Shown here: positions 9,264-25,139 of the stretch, piece after piece
Position numbering within the stretch: position 1 is the first letter of the stretch
Layout of the letters: every line of letters begins with the position of its first letter
From: an uncultured Clostridia bacterium
GTDB taxonomy: Bacteria > Bacillota > Clostridia > Oscillospirales > Ruminococcaceae
DNA: 42,126 nt
Reading direction: 5' to 3'
NCBI GenBank assembly: GCA_947624575.1
Contig: CANQKY010000006.1
Span: forward strand, 1-42,126
Position numbers and translations under genes: made by a program
Notes under the pieces: model-generated
Seen by the model: the letters and a program-made list of their open reading frames with translations, nothing else
Database searches by the model: none
What the model was told of the DNA's origin: nothing

Positions 9264-12110
9264 TTATGCCAGACCTACCGCCATGCGGAGAATCTGCAGC
9301 GCATCGGTCACTTCGATGACGCCGGAACGGTTCATGTCGGCAGCCTTGAATGCGTTGCCGGTCAGGGTTTCCAGACCTACCGCCGCACGGAGTGCTGTCA
9401 GTGCATCGGTGACTTCCACTTCTTTGTCGCCGTCCACATCGCCCGTTAGGAACGAATCGGGAACCGTAACGGTCACAGGCGCGAAGGTCACGCGGGTCGC
9501 AGTTGCCTTGGCGACCGCCGATACCGTCACCTCATACTCACCGCCCGGCAGATCGGACAGAACCGGATCGGTGTCGGTGCCGTTTGCATAGGTGTTGGCG
9601 GAAACGGTGTATACCTCGCCGGAGGTCTTGCTCTTGGCGGCAAGTGTGACCTCGCCCAGATCGGTATTGCTGTAAAGGGCTTCCAGCGCCGTTACCGACA
9701 CGGTCAGATCGCTGTCGTTTGTGAGGGAAACGGTAGGCGCAGCTGTACTTTCCTTTTGCTCCAACAGACGGTAATAGAGATTGGTAATCGGGCTGTCCTC
9801 GGTCCAGATGCCGATATCCGTCACAAAATCACGCAGCATGGCAAGCTGACCGACCGGACCGGGGTGAATGTTGTTGTCGCCGAAGATGTAACCGGCGGGA
9901 GTTGTTCTCCCCTTGATCCAACTGTAAGTGGTCATCGCCTGATTCATCGCGGTGTACTGATCCGAGTAGATGATGTGCGCGGGATCAGCATCCGCAATTT
10001 CCTTTAACTTGGAACCATAGAACCTGTCTTTGCCCACATAGGTTTGACTGGCACCTGTTACCGCTGTAGGGGTACGCAGCACAATGATCGCATTGGGGTT
10101 CACCTTGCGGATTGCCTCGATGATCTGTTCGATATATTTTTTATATTCAGTATTGCTCTCGTTGTCATTGGTGCCGAGCATGATCGAGACCACATCGGGA
10201 GCGGCGTCGGCGTATTGTTTGAGCCGTTCGTCCAGATGCTGAATGGTGCCGCGGAATGTAGTACCTGCCATATAAGCCTGCGAGCCGGAAACGGCGGTAT
10301 TGATAATCACATCTCCGTGCCTGCCGATGGAATCAAGGTATTTGTCCAGCAGCTGCGAGATCGAATCATAGCCGTGGGTGTGTGCCGCACCGTGGGTGAT
10401 CGAATCGCCCATAAAGAGCCATGTCATCGGCTTATTATCGGCAATCTTCGCGGCAATTGCTTTTTGTGCGTCGGTCAAAAGCTCCGGCGTGTTCTTTACC
10501 GCCTTGTCATCTTGTTTCACGGTGCCTTTCACGGTGGTGAGCTGGGTGCTGCCGTCAGCCGAGCGGATCACCAGAACATATGCCTGACCGGTCGGCAGAC
10601 CGCTGATGGTAAAGCTGTTATCGGTGGCTTCGCCGCTTACCACCGTGCCGTTTGCAAGATGGAGGGTATACTGCCAGCCGCCGCTGCCCTCGCTGATCGA
10701 AACGCTGAGTTTGTCATTGGCGGCAGTCACGGTCGGGGTGACCTTAGAATACTCGGTCGGCGCTTCGAGGGTGAGCAGGTTTTTCCAAAGCGCCTCATTC
10801 GTCGTCATCGGGAAAACAGTGCTGGTGCCGAATTTCCGGTTGGCAGTTGCATCTGCCAGCTGTGCGCCGAGGGTCAGGTGTCCCGCTTCGGTGAGGGTCA
10901 CATTGTCCTCCTGCAAGCCGTTATTCAGAAAATCATTGTCCGATTTTGTCAGGGTATAGTGATCCACCACCACAATGCGGCTTTTCTGCGTTTCAAAGCC
11001 AGCCAGCACCGTATCCACCGCTTCGATCAGGGCTTCGATCTTTTGATTGGTGTCCTTGTCCTTTGTCGCATAGGGAAGCTGGAGGACGAAATAGCCGTCG
11101 GTGTTATCCCGCACTTTGAGCACTTTTTCAATCAAGCCCTTTAAGTTGGTCGTGAAATCAGTGTTGCTCAGCGCCAGATCCTCTTTGCCAAGCAGATAGG
11201 CGACCGCACGGGGGTGGAAGTTATTTACCAGAGTCGTAAACTGCTCATTATAGTCCTTGACCGTCAGACCAGGCTGTGCGGTATTGATAACATACCGCTG
11301 TAAGCCGCTGGTCTTATTCTCCGCTTTTGACCAGCGGATATATTCCTCAAAATGTCCGCCGTAATTCCGTGCGCCGCCGGTCTGGGCAAAGCCGCCCTCG
11401 GCAGCCTCGCCGCCCGCGATCACCCAGGTGTCCTTGAGATTGTCGGTGTCGGAGGAATTGAACATATTGACAATGTCGGCGCCGTAGTCGTCATAGTTGG
11501 TAGTGACCTTTTCCGGCTCTTCACCGACGGTGATATAAAACTGCTTGTTGCCCGCCGCCGTGATCGCAAACCGATCCTGTGTGCCGTTGACCGGAAGCTC
11601 CGCATAGCCAGAATAACTGCTGTGATCGCCGCTGTGATTGAGGTAGTTGCCTTTCACAGCAGCACTTTCCAGCGTATAGCCTTCGGTTTCGCTTCCGGTG
11701 ATCGTCCAGATGCAGTTTGCGGCATTTTGGTCAATCGTACAGTTGTCGCCGGTAATGGTGGCATAAAGCTGCGCTGTTGCGTCTTGTCCGGTTGTATAGA
11801 ATAACGCACGCGGCTTGTCCTGCACCGAGGGCGCTACCACAAAATAGTTGCTCCCGCTTGTCACCGTATCTACAAGGGTACCGGTCGTATCCGAGGTGGA
11901 TTCCACCTTGTAAAGCTGGAGGGCATAGGTGGCACTCCCCATATACCAACCGGCTGTCAGGCTGGTACCCGCCGGTGTACCGAACGAGAGATAGGTTTTT
12001 GCTTCCGCCGCCGCAGCCGGCAAGCCCGATAGACCGCCCACGGTGGTGCTGCCGATCACACAGATGCCCGTGATGACCGCCAGAATTTGTTTCCACAGTT
12101 TTCGCTTCAT
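9264..12110 (-). CDS. Secreted tandem SGNH hydrolase with C-terminal dockerin
   Basis: A 948-residue protein. The signal peptide covers about residues 1-35 (KRKLWK, hydrophobic core, PAAAAEA). After an N-terminal beta domain (40-200) comes a first SGNH-like fold (about 205-430) in which the catalytic phrases are degraded: IAGGEA in place of GDS and LGKED in place of LGTND. A beta/fibronectin-like linker (455-535) follows, then a second SGNH domain with GDSITHG (Ser570), LGTND (646-650) and NNIHPG (His749). An Ig-like region (about 790-880) and a dockerin (about 890-948) end it. It is likely a carbohydrate esterase acting on plant or mucin glycans; the substrate is unknown. AAAGGAG precedes the ATG at 12110. 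Residue -3 from His749 is Asn, not the usual Asp. Confidence 0.8.
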   Translation of the reverse strand: MKRKLWKQILAVITGICVIGSTTVGGLSGLPAAAAEAKTYLSFGTPAGTSLTAGWYMGSATYALQLYKVESTSDTTGTLVDTVTSGSNYFVVAPSVQDKPRALFYTTGQDATAQLYATITGDNCTIDQNAANCIWTITGSETEGYTLESAAVKGNYLNHSGDHSSYSGYAELPVNGTQDRFAITAAGNKQFYITVGEEPEKVTTNYDDYGADIVNMFNSSDTDNLKDTWVIAGGEAAEGGFAQTGGARNYGGHFEEYIRWSKAENKTSGLQRYVINTAQPGLTVKDYNEQFTTLVNNFHPRAVAYLLGKEDLALSNTDFTTNLKGLIEKVLKVRDNTDGYFVLQLPYATKDKDTNQKIEALIEAVDTVLAGFETQKSRIVVVDHYTLTKSDNDFLNNGLQEDNVTLTEAGHLTLGAQLADATANRKFGTSTVFPMTTNEALWKNLLTLEAPTEYSKVTPTVTAANDKLSVSISEGSGGWQYTLHLANGTVVSGEATDNSFTISGLPTGQAYVLVIRSADGSTQLTTVKGTVKQDDKAVKNTPELLTDAQKAIAAKIADNKPMTWLFMGDSITHGAAHTHGYDSISQLLDKYLDSIGRHGDVIINTAVSGSQAYMAGTTFRGTIQHLDERLKQYADAAPDVVSIMLGTNDNESNTEYKKYIEQIIEAIRKVNPNAIIVLRTPTAVTGASQTYVGKDRFYGSKLKEIADADPAHIIYSDQYTAMNQAMTTYSWIKGRTTPAGYIFGDNNIHPGPVGQLAMLRDFVTDIGIWTEDSPITNLYYRLLEQKESTAAPTVSLTNDSDLTVSVTALEALYSNTDLGEVTLAAKSKTSGEVYTVSANTYANGTDTDPVLSDLPGGEYEVTVSAVAKATATRVTFAPVTVTVPDSFLTGDVDGDKEVEVTDALTALRAAVGLETLTGNAFKAADMNRSGVIEVTDALQILRMAVGLA

Positions 12111-20562: not shown

Positions 20563-22800
20563 TTAGTTACCGTTCAAAAACGGATTGGTCTGCCGATGCT
20601 GGGTGTAATAGGTGTCGGGATAGCGGACATTCCCGTTGACGGTCGCGGCGTTTACATCTACCACGGCGGATTCGCCTGTCCGCACTTTCCGCGCTAAGAT
20701 CACACACCGTCCGTCCTTCAGCGTGGAATCGGAGGTACAGGTCGACAGGGTGATGATCTTATCGCTGCTGTTGACGTCCACACCGGTGTGGTACAGCGTA
20801 CGGCGGTTCACTTCGTCCATATAAATTTCAAAGTCCAGCTCATCGGTAAACCGGAGAAAATCGTGATAGTAAAACGGATCGGAATCGCTCATACTGCCGT
20901 CAATAATCATGCAGGCGAACACCTTCCACTGTCCCTTTTCATAGACGGTGTTGTAATTGATCAGCGGGTGCTCCTTAAAATAAGACAGGGAGGTGTACTC
21001 TTTCAAAGGCGAGAACATCAGCCCGCCGATGATGTTGTGCCCGTAGATGACGGTGTTGAAGTCGGCGCTGTCGGGGGAGATGTTGTTGCGGTAATCGGCA
21101 AAGGGGGTGCCGTTCCGGTTAAAGGAGCCGTCAAAGCTGGTATTGAGGTACTTGTCGTTGTCGGTCGACTGCACGACCGGCAGGGCAATATCGGTCCCGT
21201 CGATCGAAAGGTAGCCCTTGATCTCGGGATTGATCTGATACAGCTTTGCAAATTCGGGGAGATAGCCCTCCGGTAAGCCGCTTAATTCCTGCGCGGTGGG
21301 CGGAGCGTCTATCATAGTCTGAAGCCTGCCGAGCAGCCGTTGCTGCGCGACATTGTCATACACATACTGCCCGATATACACGGCGCTTACAATGAATACC
21401 GACAGCGCGACGAGCAAAATGAGCTTTCTGACCACTTCGCCCGCGCTGTCCCCTTTCCAGGGGATAAACCGTTTGAATATCATACGGTGGTGAGCCTTCC
21501 TTTCCTGCTTTTCCTGTGCAAAATAATCCTTGACCGCACGGTCCGCCTCCTCTGTTTTCATCAGAACGCGGCGCACCATATCCAGTGCGTGCATACAGGA
21601 AACGGTGCGGATATAGTCCCGCTCGTTCGCCTGCCCGTGACCCAGCTGCAGGTGCTTGACCAGTGTGGTTTCCTTGGTGTTGACGGCGACATACACGGTG
21701 CCGACCGGCTTTTCGGGCGTGCCGCCGTCCGGTCCGGCAATGCCGGTGATCCCCACGCCGATTGAGGCGTGCCCCTTTCTGCGCGCGCCGTATGCCATCT
21801 GTATGGCAACCTGTTCGCTGACGGCGCCGTACTGCTTCAGCGTTTTTTCCGAAACAAACAGCTCTGTCGCCTTGACCTCATTGCTGTAAGAGACAATGCC
21901 GCAGTCGAAAATCTCGGACGCGCCGGGGATCGAGGTGATCTTCGACGCCAGCATACCGCCGGTACAGCTTTCGGCAAGTGCGATCCGCTGCCGCTTTGCG
22001 CGGAGCATGCCGACCACGACCTCCTCCAGCGAGTCCACATCTTGCCCGTAGACCGCGTCACCGAGGATTCGGCGAATATCGTCCAGCACCGGCTTGATAC
22101 ACAGGTCTGCCATGCTTTGGTTGGGAGCGGCTGCCGTCACCCGAATCTGCACCTCGCCGTCCTTGGCATAGAGGGCGGTGGTGGGATTTTCCTGATCCAG
22201 CAGATGCTTGAGCGCCTGCTGGATTGCCGACTCGCCGATCCCGAACACCCGCAGCGTGTGGGAGCAGATCTCGCCCTCCGCGTAGCGGGAAAGATAGGGG
22301 AGCGCCTGTTCCGCAAACATCGGGTGCAGTTCTCTCGGCGGTCCGGGCAGCAGGATTACGCAGTGGACGCCGTCGTCGATAATCAGCCCAGGCGCCGTTC
22401 CGTAGGGGTTTGGCATCACCACCGCATCGGGCGGCACCATCGCCTGCTTGCGGTTGCTTTCGGGCATCTCTCTGCCGGTGCGGCGGAAGTAGGCTTCGAT
22501 ATCGTCCAGTATCTGCCGGTTTTCCAAAAGCGGTACGCCGAGCACATCGCAGACCACTTCCTTGGTCAGATCGTCGTCGGTCGGTCCGAGGCCGCCGGTG
22601 AAGATGAGAATATCGCTGCGGGAGAGCGCCAGCTCGGTCTGGCGGCGCAGCCGCTCGTAGTTGTCGCCCACAGCGGAATGATACAGCACATTGATGCCGA
22701 GCGCGGCAAGCTGGCGGGATAAAAACTGCGCGTGGGTATTTTGAATATCGCCCAGCAAAAGCTCGGTGCCGACTGCGATCAGTTCAGCATTTTTCCGCAT
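20563..22800 (-). CDS. CinA fused in frame to a class B sortase
   Basis: A 745-residue protein. Residues 1-415 are a whole CinA: GTELLLGDIQ and FTGGLGPTDDDLT of the MoCF-type domain, then the C-terminal nicotinamide-nucleotide amidase domain with LAESCTGG near 276 and ITGIAGPDGG near 351. A charged linker (416-458) leads to one membrane segment (about 460-478) and then a class B sortase domain with catalytic His588 (YGHNI), Cys688 (LSTCTSD) and Arg699 (DGRCV). CinA would sit in the cytosol and the sortase outside. The reading frame is continuous. Met440 (21483), behind AAAGGAAGG with a long 13-base gap, could start a free sortase of 306 residues. Confidence 0.8.
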   Translation of the reverse strand: MRKNAELIAVGTELLLGDIQNTHAQFLSRQLAALGINVLYHSAVGDNYERLRRQTELALSRSDILIFTGGLGPTDDDLTKEVVCDVLGVPLLENRQILDDIEAYFRRTGREMPESNRKQAMVPPDAVVMPNPYGTAPGLIIDDGVHCVILLPGPPRELHPMFAEQALPYLSRYAEGEICSHTLRVFGIGESAIQQALKHLLDQENPTTALYAKDGEVQIRVTAAAPNQSMADLCIKPVLDDIRRILGDAVYGQDVDSLEEVVVGMLRAKRQRIALAESCTGGMLASKITSIPGASEIFDCGIVSYSNEVKATELFVSEKTLKQYGAVSEQVAIQMAYGARRKGHASIGVGITGIAGPDGGTPEKPVGTVYVAVNTKETTLVKHLQLGHGQANERDYIRTVSCMHALDMVRRVLMKTEEADRAVKDYFAQEKQERKAHHRMIFKRFIPWKGDSAGEVVRKLILLVALSVFIVSAVYIGQYVYDNVAQQRLLGRLQTMIDAPPTAQELSGLPEGYLPEFAKLYQINPEIKGYLSIDGTDIALPVVQSTDNDKYLNTSFDGSFNRNGTPFADYRNNISPDSADFNTVIYGHNIIGGLMFSPLKEYTSLSYFKEHPLINYNTVYEKGQWKVFACMIIDGSMSDSDPFYYHDFLRFTDELDFEIYMDEVNRRTLYHTGVDVNSSDKIITLSTCTSDSTLKDGRCVILARKVRTGESAVVDVNAATVNGNVRYPDTYYTQHRQTNPFLNGN

Positions 22801-22821: not shown

Positions 22822-23997
22822 TTATTCTGAGACAAGCAGCTTCCAAGCCGTGTCCTCGACCGCCCTTTGGATAAGCGGCGCAAAGTCAAACGCCGCCTCG
22901 GCGGCTTCCACCGCCGCAAGCTGAGGACGGGTCTTGGGGTGGCGCGGCGTAAACACGGTACAGCAATCCTCGTAGGGGAGAATGGAAGTTTCATAGGTGT
23001 CGATCCGCCGCGCAATCGAAACGATCTCGCTTTTGTCCATGCCGATCACGGGGCGGAATACCGGCAGATCGCAGACGGCGTCGGTGCAGCAAAGCGCCTG
23101 CAGGGTCTGGCTGGCGACCTGCCCCACGCTTTCGCCGGTCACCAGAGCGCCAAACCGGTCACGCGCGGCAATCTGTGATGCGATCCGCATCATCATACGC
23201 CGCATGATGATGGTGAAATATTCTTCCGGACAGTGATCTCTGATCGCCTCCTGCAATTTGGTGAAGGGGACGCAGAAAAAGGGAATCCGCCCGCAGTATT
23301 CGCTCATTTTTTCGCCGAGCGTCTCCACCTTTTGGAGCGCGCGGTCGCTGGTATAGGGCGGAGCGGCAAAATGGATTCCGCCGACCTCCAGCCCCCGCTT
23401 TGCCATCATATAGCCCGCCACCGGACTGTCGATCCCGCCCGAAAGGAGCAGCAGCACCTTTCCGCTTCCGCCGACCGGCATACCGCCCGCGCCCGTAATA
23501 CTGCCGGCGTGGAGATATGCCGCACGCTCCCGCACCTCAACGGTGACGGTCACCTCCGGCTGATGGACGTCGACCCGCAGATGAGGATAGCGGGCGAGCA
23601 ACGCGCCGCCCAGCTCACGGCAGATAGCGGGGGAGTCCATCGGAAACCGCTTGTCCGCCCGCTTGGCTTCCACCTTGAAGGAGGAAGCGTCCTCCAATAT
23701 GTCGGAAAAGCATTCCTGCGCGGCGGCTTCGATCGCCGCATAGTCCTTTTCCACCGCCCATGCGCGGTGGAAGGCGGCGATCCCGAATATCTTTTTGATC
23801 CGGTTTACCGCTTCCTCCATGTCGAAGCCGTCGGATAAGGGTTCCACATAAATGGTGGACTGCGCCCGCTCAATTTTGAAATCCCCCAACGGCTTTAAGC
23901 GGCGGCGGATATTTTTGATTAAGATGGATTCAAAGGTGGTGCGGTTGAGACCCTTTAAGGCGATCTCGCCGTTTTTGATGAGAAGAATTTGTTTCAT
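22822..23997 (-). CDS. thiI: tRNA 4-thiouridine sulfurtransferase ThiI
   Basis: A 391-residue protein. The N-terminal ferredoxin-like/THUMP region (about 1-165) binds tRNA, and the PP-loop LLLSGGIDSPVAGYMMAKRG near residue 178 adenylates U8. There is no C-terminal rhodanese domain, the usual Gram-positive form, which depends on a dedicated cysteine desulfurase; one is encoded eight bases upstream. The start ATG 23997 has AGGAG five bases before it; the longer frame up to 24258 lies over the desulfurase C-terminus and is rejected. It makes s4U in tRNA and may supply sulfur for thiamine. Confidence 0.93.
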   Translation of the reverse strand: MKQILLIKNGEIALKGLNRTTFESILIKNIRRRLKPLGDFKIERAQSTIYVEPLSDGFDMEEAVNRIKKIFGIAAFHRAWAVEKDYAAIEAAAQECFSDILEDASSFKVEAKRADKRFPMDSPAICRELGGALLARYPHLRVDVHQPEVTVTVEVRERAAYLHAGSITGAGGMPVGGSGKVLLLLSGGIDSPVAGYMMAKRGLEVGGIHFAAPPYTSDRALQKVETLGEKMSEYCGRIPFFCVPFTKLQEAIRDHCPEEYFTIIMRRMMMRIASQIAARDRFGALVTGESVGQVASQTLQALCCTDAVCDLPVFRPVIGMDKSEIVSIARRIDTYETSILPYEDCCTVFTPRHPKTRPQLAAVEAAEAAFDFAPLIQRAVEDTAWKLLVSE

Positions 23998-24005
23998 AAC
24001 TGCTC

Positions 24006-25139
24006 CTAGCTGTGTGCCACTGTGTCCAGCGCGTTTTTGAGCGCCGCGGCAAAGGTGTTCAAATCGGATTCGGTCGTGTCCTTCCCGAAGCTCACCCGCA
24101 GGGTGCCGTCCCGATCGGCGGGTGAAAGCCCCAGTGCCTTGAGCACATGGCTCGGCTTTCCGCCCGCGCAGGCGGAGCCGCTGGAGAGGTAGATGTTCTG
24201 CTGCTCCAATGCGTGAAGCAGTATTTCCGAGCGGTAGCCCGCCGCCGATATGCTGCATATATAAGGTATCGCGTCCAGATAACGGTGAAGCACGATCCGC
24301 GGATCGCCCTCCAAAGCCTGTTCCAGTACGCTTTTCAGGCTTTCATAATGGCGGTAAAGCTCTGCCTGACAGCCACAGAGCATTTCGACCGCCGCGCCGA
24401 AGCCCGCAATCGCGGGGACATTCTCGGTGCCGGAGCGCAGCCCCTTTTCCTGCCCGCCTCCGGTCAGTTGGGGCAGCACCCGTCTGCCCTTTTTGAGATA
24501 GAGCGCGCCGACTCCCTTCGGCGCATAGACCTTGTGACCGCTGACGGTCAAAAGGTCCAGATCCCACCGCTCGGCGAAAACGGGGATACGGCAAAAGCCC
24601 TGCACCGCGTCGCAGTGAAACAGCACCTCCGGTCGAACGCGGCGGGCAGCCTTGACCAGCCGGTCGATCGGGAAGCGAAGTCCCACTTCGTTGTTGATGA
24701 GCATCACCGAAATCAGAATCGTGTCCTCCCGCATCGCTTCGGTCAGCTGCTGTGGTGTGATCCTGCCGTTTTGATCGGGGATCAGTCGGGTCACGGCGAA
24801 CCCGTTTTGCTCCAAACGGTTTGCGGTTTCCAGCACAGAGGGGTGCTCCACCGCCGAGACGATGATATGATCGCCGCGCCGCCGCATGGCTTCGGCGCCG
24901 CCGATCAGCGCGAGGTTGTTTGCCTCGGTCGCACCCGAGGTGAAATACACCTGCTCCGGCGCGGCGCCCATGGCTTTGGCGATCTGCCGCCTCGCCTGCC
25001 GGACAGCCTGTTCCGCCTGAAGCCCCTTTCGGTGGAGGGAGGAGGGATTGCCGTAGCATTCGGTCATCGTCCGGACTGCCGCATCGACCGCCTGCGCGCA
25101 GACGCGGGTGGTCGCACTGTTGTCCAGATAGATCTCCAT
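24006..25139 (-). CDS. Cysteine desulfurase (NifS/IscS family, ThiI partner)
   Basis: A 377-residue PLP enzyme that takes sulfur from cysteine as a persulfide. YLDNSATTRV at the N-terminus, TSGATEANNLAL, the PLP lysine in SGHKVYAPKGVGALY near residue 205, and the active-site Cys in SSGSACAGGKPSHVLKALG near residue 325 are all present. Its place directly before thiI matches the known nifZ-thiI pair of Bacillus, so it is probably the ThiI sulfur donor. The start ATG 25139 follows AAAGGAAG. It is first in the six-gene minus-strand run. Confidence 0.93.
   Translation of the reverse strand: MEIYLDNSATTRVCAQAVDAAVRTMTECYGNPSSLHRKGLQAEQAVRQARRQIAKAMGAAPEQVYFTSGATEANNLALIGGAEAMRRRGDHIIVSAVEHPSVLETANRLEQNGFAVTRLIPDQNGRITPQQLTEAMREDTILISVMLINNEVGLRFPIDRLVKAARRVRPEVLFHCDAVQGFCRIPVFAERWDLDLLTVSGHKVYAPKGVGALYLKKGRRVLPQLTGGGQEKGLRSGTENVPAIAGFGAAVEMLCGCQAELYRHYESLKSVLEQALEGDPRIVLHRYLDAIPYICSISAAGYRSEILLHALEQQNIYLSSGSACAGGKPSHVLKALGLSPADRDGTLRVSFGKDTTESDLNTFAAALKNALDTVAHS

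Follow-up and report, generated by a model that had tools for sequence, protein, structure and literature searches.

The uncultured Clostridia bacterium (Ruminococcaceae) studied here, a gut bacterium, encodes a complete CinA, a membrane segment, and a class B sortase (SrtB) in one uninterrupted frame. The gene lies in a stretch of 42,126 nucleotides (contig CANQKY010000006.1), which is called the window. The interpretation that we regard as probable from these sequences is that of a single bitopic protein, born of repeated fusion within a conserved gene block, with the activity of the cell's sole CinA inside and a wall-anchoring sortase outside, and with its CinA part probably also acting as a scaffold. 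Residues 1 to 415 would form a complete cytosolic CinA with ADP-ribose pyrophosphatase and NMN amidohydrolase functions, one helix would cross the membrane, and the extracytoplasmic sortase, with its full catalytic set, would anchor proteins to the wall. The fused CinA should carry out the cell's NMN and ADP-ribose recycling at the inner membrane face, because it is the only CinA found in the window genome (98.7% complete) and has kept all mapped residues. Such a fusion would connect the recycling of NAD in the cytosol with the sorting of proteins and lysis of the wall on the outer side, a connection that none of the literature searched describes.

The fused frame, its domains, and its neighbors

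The frame runs on the minus strand from an ATG at 22800 to a stop that ends at 20563, with no internal stops (Table 1). The full-length CinA equivalog NF001813 (NCBIfam) matches residues 4 to 415 with 514.6 bits (cut-off, 379), and the class B sortase equivalog TIGR03064 (NCBIfam) matches residues 456 to 701 with 171.1 bits (cut-off, 153.75); the Pfam domains MoCF_biosynth, CinA_KH, CinA, and Sortase each score above their cut-offs. One strong hydrophobic segment, preceded by basic residues, begins at residue 456, as in an N-terminal sortase anchor, and the juxtamembrane motif PWKGDxxxEVVRK is common to the window fusion and unfused SrtB relatives. By the positive-inside rule, the N terminus would lie inside the cell and the C terminus outside. 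The motifs YGHN, TLSTC, and GR provide the catalytic His/Cys/Arg set of the sortase. Across both CinA domains, 10 of 10 catalytic or binding positions are kept, as transferred by motif from the structure paper on Thermus thermophilus CinA (PMC4246079), the phosphate-binding Arg being either of two neighboring conserved Args. An AF2 model is confident for CinA only; its sortase half (pLDDT below 50) is unreliable because the alignment was limited to ten sequences.

Only one further genome represents the genus (G001), and it carries the same uninterrupted fusion frame (L003) at 93% identity. Between the two, the linker at residues 415 to 455 has a dN/dS of 0.094 with a dS of 0.84, and the junction is therefore translated in this frame. 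At the sequence level, this comparison confirms 20563 to 22800 (−) as a genuine single intact protein-coding frame of 745 aa and not a sequencing error, from which we infer one translated chain. An earlier note on this DNA had described, without naming a strand, one uninterrupted 745-residue frame with CinA, a membrane segment, and a class B sortase, had named His588, Cys688, and Arg699, and had proposed the topology and the position of the junction, all of which agree with the present results. It had not picked up that the gene belongs to a conserved block, that fusions recur and extend to triple proteins, or that catalytic residues decay reciprocally.

Table 1. Coordinates of the fusion gene, its parts, and the adjoining genes in the window
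Feature	Position	Strand	Evidence
CinA::SrtB fusion gene, 745 aa, about 82.7 kDa	20563..22800	−	Open frame; Pfam and NCBIfam above cut-offs; G001/L003 frame
Predicted COG1058/MoCF domain, ADP-ribose pyrophosphatase type (residues 1-175); E13, D46, D77, E157	22276..22800	−	PF00994; residue mapping to T. thermophilus CinA
CinA KH domain (176-252) with GIGES loop	22045..22275	−	PF18146
Predicted PncC/NMN amidohydrolase domain (253-414); AESCTGG, Y305, K310, GITG Thr, Arg394/398	21559..22044	−	PF02464; residue mapping
Linker (415-455), basic juxtamembrane motif PWKGDxxxEVVRK	21436..21558	−	dN/dS 0.094; juxtamembrane comparison
Single transmembrane helix (about 456-477)	21370..21435	−	Hydropathy peak 2.41 at residue 456; helix in AF2 model
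Class B sortase catalytic domain (531-705): His588, Cys688, Arg699	20686..21210	−	TIGR03064; solved SrtB 1rz2 E 1e-33
Cysteine desulfurase, nifS/iscS type, upstream gene	24006..25139	−	PF00266; conserved order
thiI, upstream gene	22822..24258	−	TIGR00342 371 bits
SpoIID/LytB-like downstream gene, 321 aa, N-terminal hydrophobic segment	19585..20550	−	PF08486; TIGR02669 88 bits; solved SpoIID 4rwr E 8e-15

Each half of the protein resembles known systems. The window protein shares three domains and the mapped catalytic residues with two-domain CinAs (COG1058-PncC) such as those of T. thermophilus and Streptococcus pneumoniae (6mr3), the latter being the nearest solved structure for its CinA (E value, 1e-77). 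Known two-domain CinAs are soluble and end at about 415 aa, whereas in the window protein a membrane helix and then a sortase follow. With the class B sortases of Bacillus anthracis (1rz2, the nearest solved structure; E value, 1e-33) and Clostridioides difficile, it shares TIGR03064, the His/Cys/Arg set, and the N-in/C-out anchor. The short N terminus of the usual SrtB is a membrane anchor only, whereas 440 CinA residues precede the window sortase. According to a survey of the CinA domain (PMC3855486), CinA is occasionally fused to other domains; such proteins were set aside there, and the available passages make no mention of a fusion to a sortase or SpoIID. Searches of open-licence papers gave none that describes a CinA-sortase or sortase-SpoIID fusion. 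The single domains are known and the joint architecture did not turn up in the open literature searched, for which the earlier statement that no link between CinA and protein sorting is described also holds.

The gene order on the minus strand of the window is nifS-thiI-cinA::srtB-spoIID/lytB. A gap of 12 nucleotides, which contains AGGAGA, separates the fusion gene from the downstream gene. The latter encodes a SpoIID/LytB domain (TIGR02669, 88 bits; cut-off, 83.3) and belongs to a family that is fused to SrtB in many relatives; its score of 94 bits against the SpoIID sporulation equivalog TIGR02870 is below the cut-off of 234.75. The first-block Glu of the SpoIID domain is kept in 48 of 49 copies, and the window copy reads GNGVGLSR versus GHGxGxSQ in most. 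This gene is the sole SpoIID-domain gene found in the window genome (G000) and in G001, where Spo0A is present; in most relatives, the genome encodes another SpoIID at a different place, with a better score. A sporulation-specific role was rejected, given the score under the equivalog cut-off and given that Spo0A does not discriminate because it is present in 51 of the 55 genomes searched.

Recurrence of the fusion in the order

The block was surveyed with home-made profiles in 120 regions from the family of the window (397 genomes searched) and 20 from its order (295 searched); the regions were picked from the best-scoring matches, so their counts are not frequencies. The block nifS-thiI-cinA-srtB-spoIID/lytB is conserved across these regions, and its members occur as separate genes, as CinA::SrtB (the window), as SrtB::SpoIID (L153), and as CinA::SrtB::SpoIID proteins of 1000 to 1500 aa. 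At one locus (L155; G169:C8), the frame of CinA::SrtB runs on through a Ser-rich linker into a glucosaminidase domain. In a tandem form, an intact cinA precedes a second gene that joins a truncated CinA (the PncC half) to SpoIID and a dead sortase between them. Loci with this PncC half are L066, L114, L115, L120, L124, L133, L137, L139, and L143; the CinA/SrtB part of their second genes looks fully non-catalytic, and the SpoIID part appears active.

Within the window's family, the CinA::SrtB fusion occurs in many genera, and further families of the order have it too. Unbroken frames were confirmed in families f1, f4, f9, f15, and f24, and the PncC-only form was seen in f23. A class-wide search gave no full-length fusion outside the order among the matches listed. 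On the CinA tree, block-linked copies show 9 changes between the fused and unfused states; on well-supported branches alone, the double form requires at least 7 changes and the triple form at least 6, in a parsimony that cannot separate gain of the fusion from its loss. In five unfused loci, a single in-frame stop separates cinA from srtB. The fusion was probably born from this block as stop codons between neighbors were lost several times, and the same route would have led elsewhere to CinA::SrtB::SpoIID. When the same neighbors fuse repeatedly, this is a classic indication that they are functionally linked.

A serious rival, which we rate as quite possible though below an even chance, is neutral read-through: operon neighbors lost a stop codon, and the joined form persists since it is hard to undo, with no coupling between the domains. 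Adjacent unfused genes are common, sometimes one in-frame stop apart, the CinA tree switches back and forth between fused and unfused forms, and the linkers of fused relatives differ in length and sequence, all of which would fit such an origin. Unfused relatives keep the same genes, and the covalent link is therefore dispensable. However, linkage and fusion of this trio recur, including with SpoIID in the same order, and the pattern of catalytic decay also argues against neutrality.

Reciprocal decay of the catalytic residues

All mapped positions are present in unfused full-length CinAs (n = 98), save single differences at two cells of the comparison. Among 45 full-length fusions, 15, including that of the window, have both catalytic sets; in 13, CinA is broken and the SrtB His/Cys/Arg set is intact; in the other 17, SrtB residues are lost and CinA is intact (4 of the 17 differ at one Arg). 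Both sets are broken in none of the 45 (Fisher test, 5.8e-4, uncorrected for ancestry). The exception is the truncated tandem copies, in which the CinA half and the sortase are both defective and an intact cinA adjoins.

A second, stand-alone CinA was found in 12 of the 13 genomes with a broken CinA versus 0 of 32 with an intact one (Fisher test, 4.5e-10; 1.4e-4 by genus, a rough collapse that is the sole correction for ancestry). Another SrtB is present in all 13 of the broken-SrtB genomes tested, an association that is weak alone (Fisher test, 0.07).

The broken CinA domain has a dN/dS of 0.06 in the close pair L064/L067, and the broken SrtB domain has one of 0.09 in the close pair L057/L061; in more distant pairs, dS is saturated or dN/dS is higher, up to 0.56 (SrtB, L050/L054). 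Purifying selection thus acts on the broken domains of both close pairs; in the other pairs, the constraint is looser. Both this constraint and the lack of any full-length fusion without either activity (0/45) count against neutral read-through. Retention of the broken domains suggests a non-catalytic role, most simply as an anchor or dimerization scaffold of the sortase/SpoIID module. In the bitopic protein that we favor, the CinA module would probably have this second role, holding the sortase and the SpoIID/LytB-like lytic enzyme from the cytosolic side as an anchor or a dimer-forming scaffold. Reciprocal loss, together with constraint on the broken domain in the testable close pairs, amounts to a natural experiment on a non-catalytic role.

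Possible internal start, possible metabolite gating, and candidate substrates

Met440 is preceded 11 nucleotides upstream by AAAGGAAGG, and both the Met and this stretch are kept in both congeners. The earlier note had suggested an internal start here; this feature holds within the genus and is not general in the fused family, most other fused members of which are without a Met at the matching position. An internal start, or proteolysis, that yields a free sortase alongside the fusion is an unlikely alternative: the 11-nucleotide spacing is long, the bases of the AAAGGAAGG stretch also encode conserved residues, and selection on the linker shows that the frame is translated through. In the genus of the window, a start at Met440 may give an additional free sortase.

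NMN is a product of DNA ligase. In a further reading, which we consider doubtful, CinA would bind NMN or ADP-ribose and signal across the membrane to the sortase and SpoIID as a wall module gated by NAD metabolites. The fusion does join a cytosolic enzyme to outer enzymes. Retention of the broken CinA domains fits as well, as does the asymmetric dimer that T. thermophilus CinA forms, in which domains move (PMC4246079). However, the broken group has also lost metal- and phosphate-contact residues, so that a conserved ligand sensor is less likely in that group. It appears improbable that CinA reads NMN, for example from DNA ligase, or ADP-ribose and thereby controls how active the attached sortase and SpoIID/LytB-type enzyme are; if true, wall assembly would be tied by a transmembrane signaling module to NAD turnover or to DNA replication. 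Cytosolic NAD chemistry might conceivably be coupled to work on the wall.

A missed stop or frameshift from sequencing or assembly, conceivable for a draft genome (160 contigs) and named in the earlier note as one way for the fusion to fail, is rejected as having a negligible chance, since the independent congeneric assembly has the same frame, the junction is under selection, and unbroken fusions also occur in relatives, including few-contig genomes (e.g., G052, 2 contigs; G078, 7 contigs). The note's other doubt, that relatives might always have two separate genes, falls with these fused relatives.

A second SrtB is encoded elsewhere in the window genome (G000:C19), so substrates cannot be assigned to the fused sortase. 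A candidate substrate in this genome is a surface protein (L188, 1-1602, +) that ends in SPKTGD, a hydrophobic segment, and KKRKVR; an SPKTG-type sorting signal lies at G000:C9:36710. The sorting-signal survey used one short HMM, and most of its matches fall below the cut-off; with it, no SrtB-type signals were found in the broken-SrtB genomes G015 and G101, and 32 and 14 matches, respectively, were found in G014 and G131, both of which have an intact SrtB at the locus. Elsewhere in the window, a 948-aa protein (9264 to 12110, −) combines a GDSL lipase/esterase domain with a type I dockerin, which hints at a cellulosome-like system.
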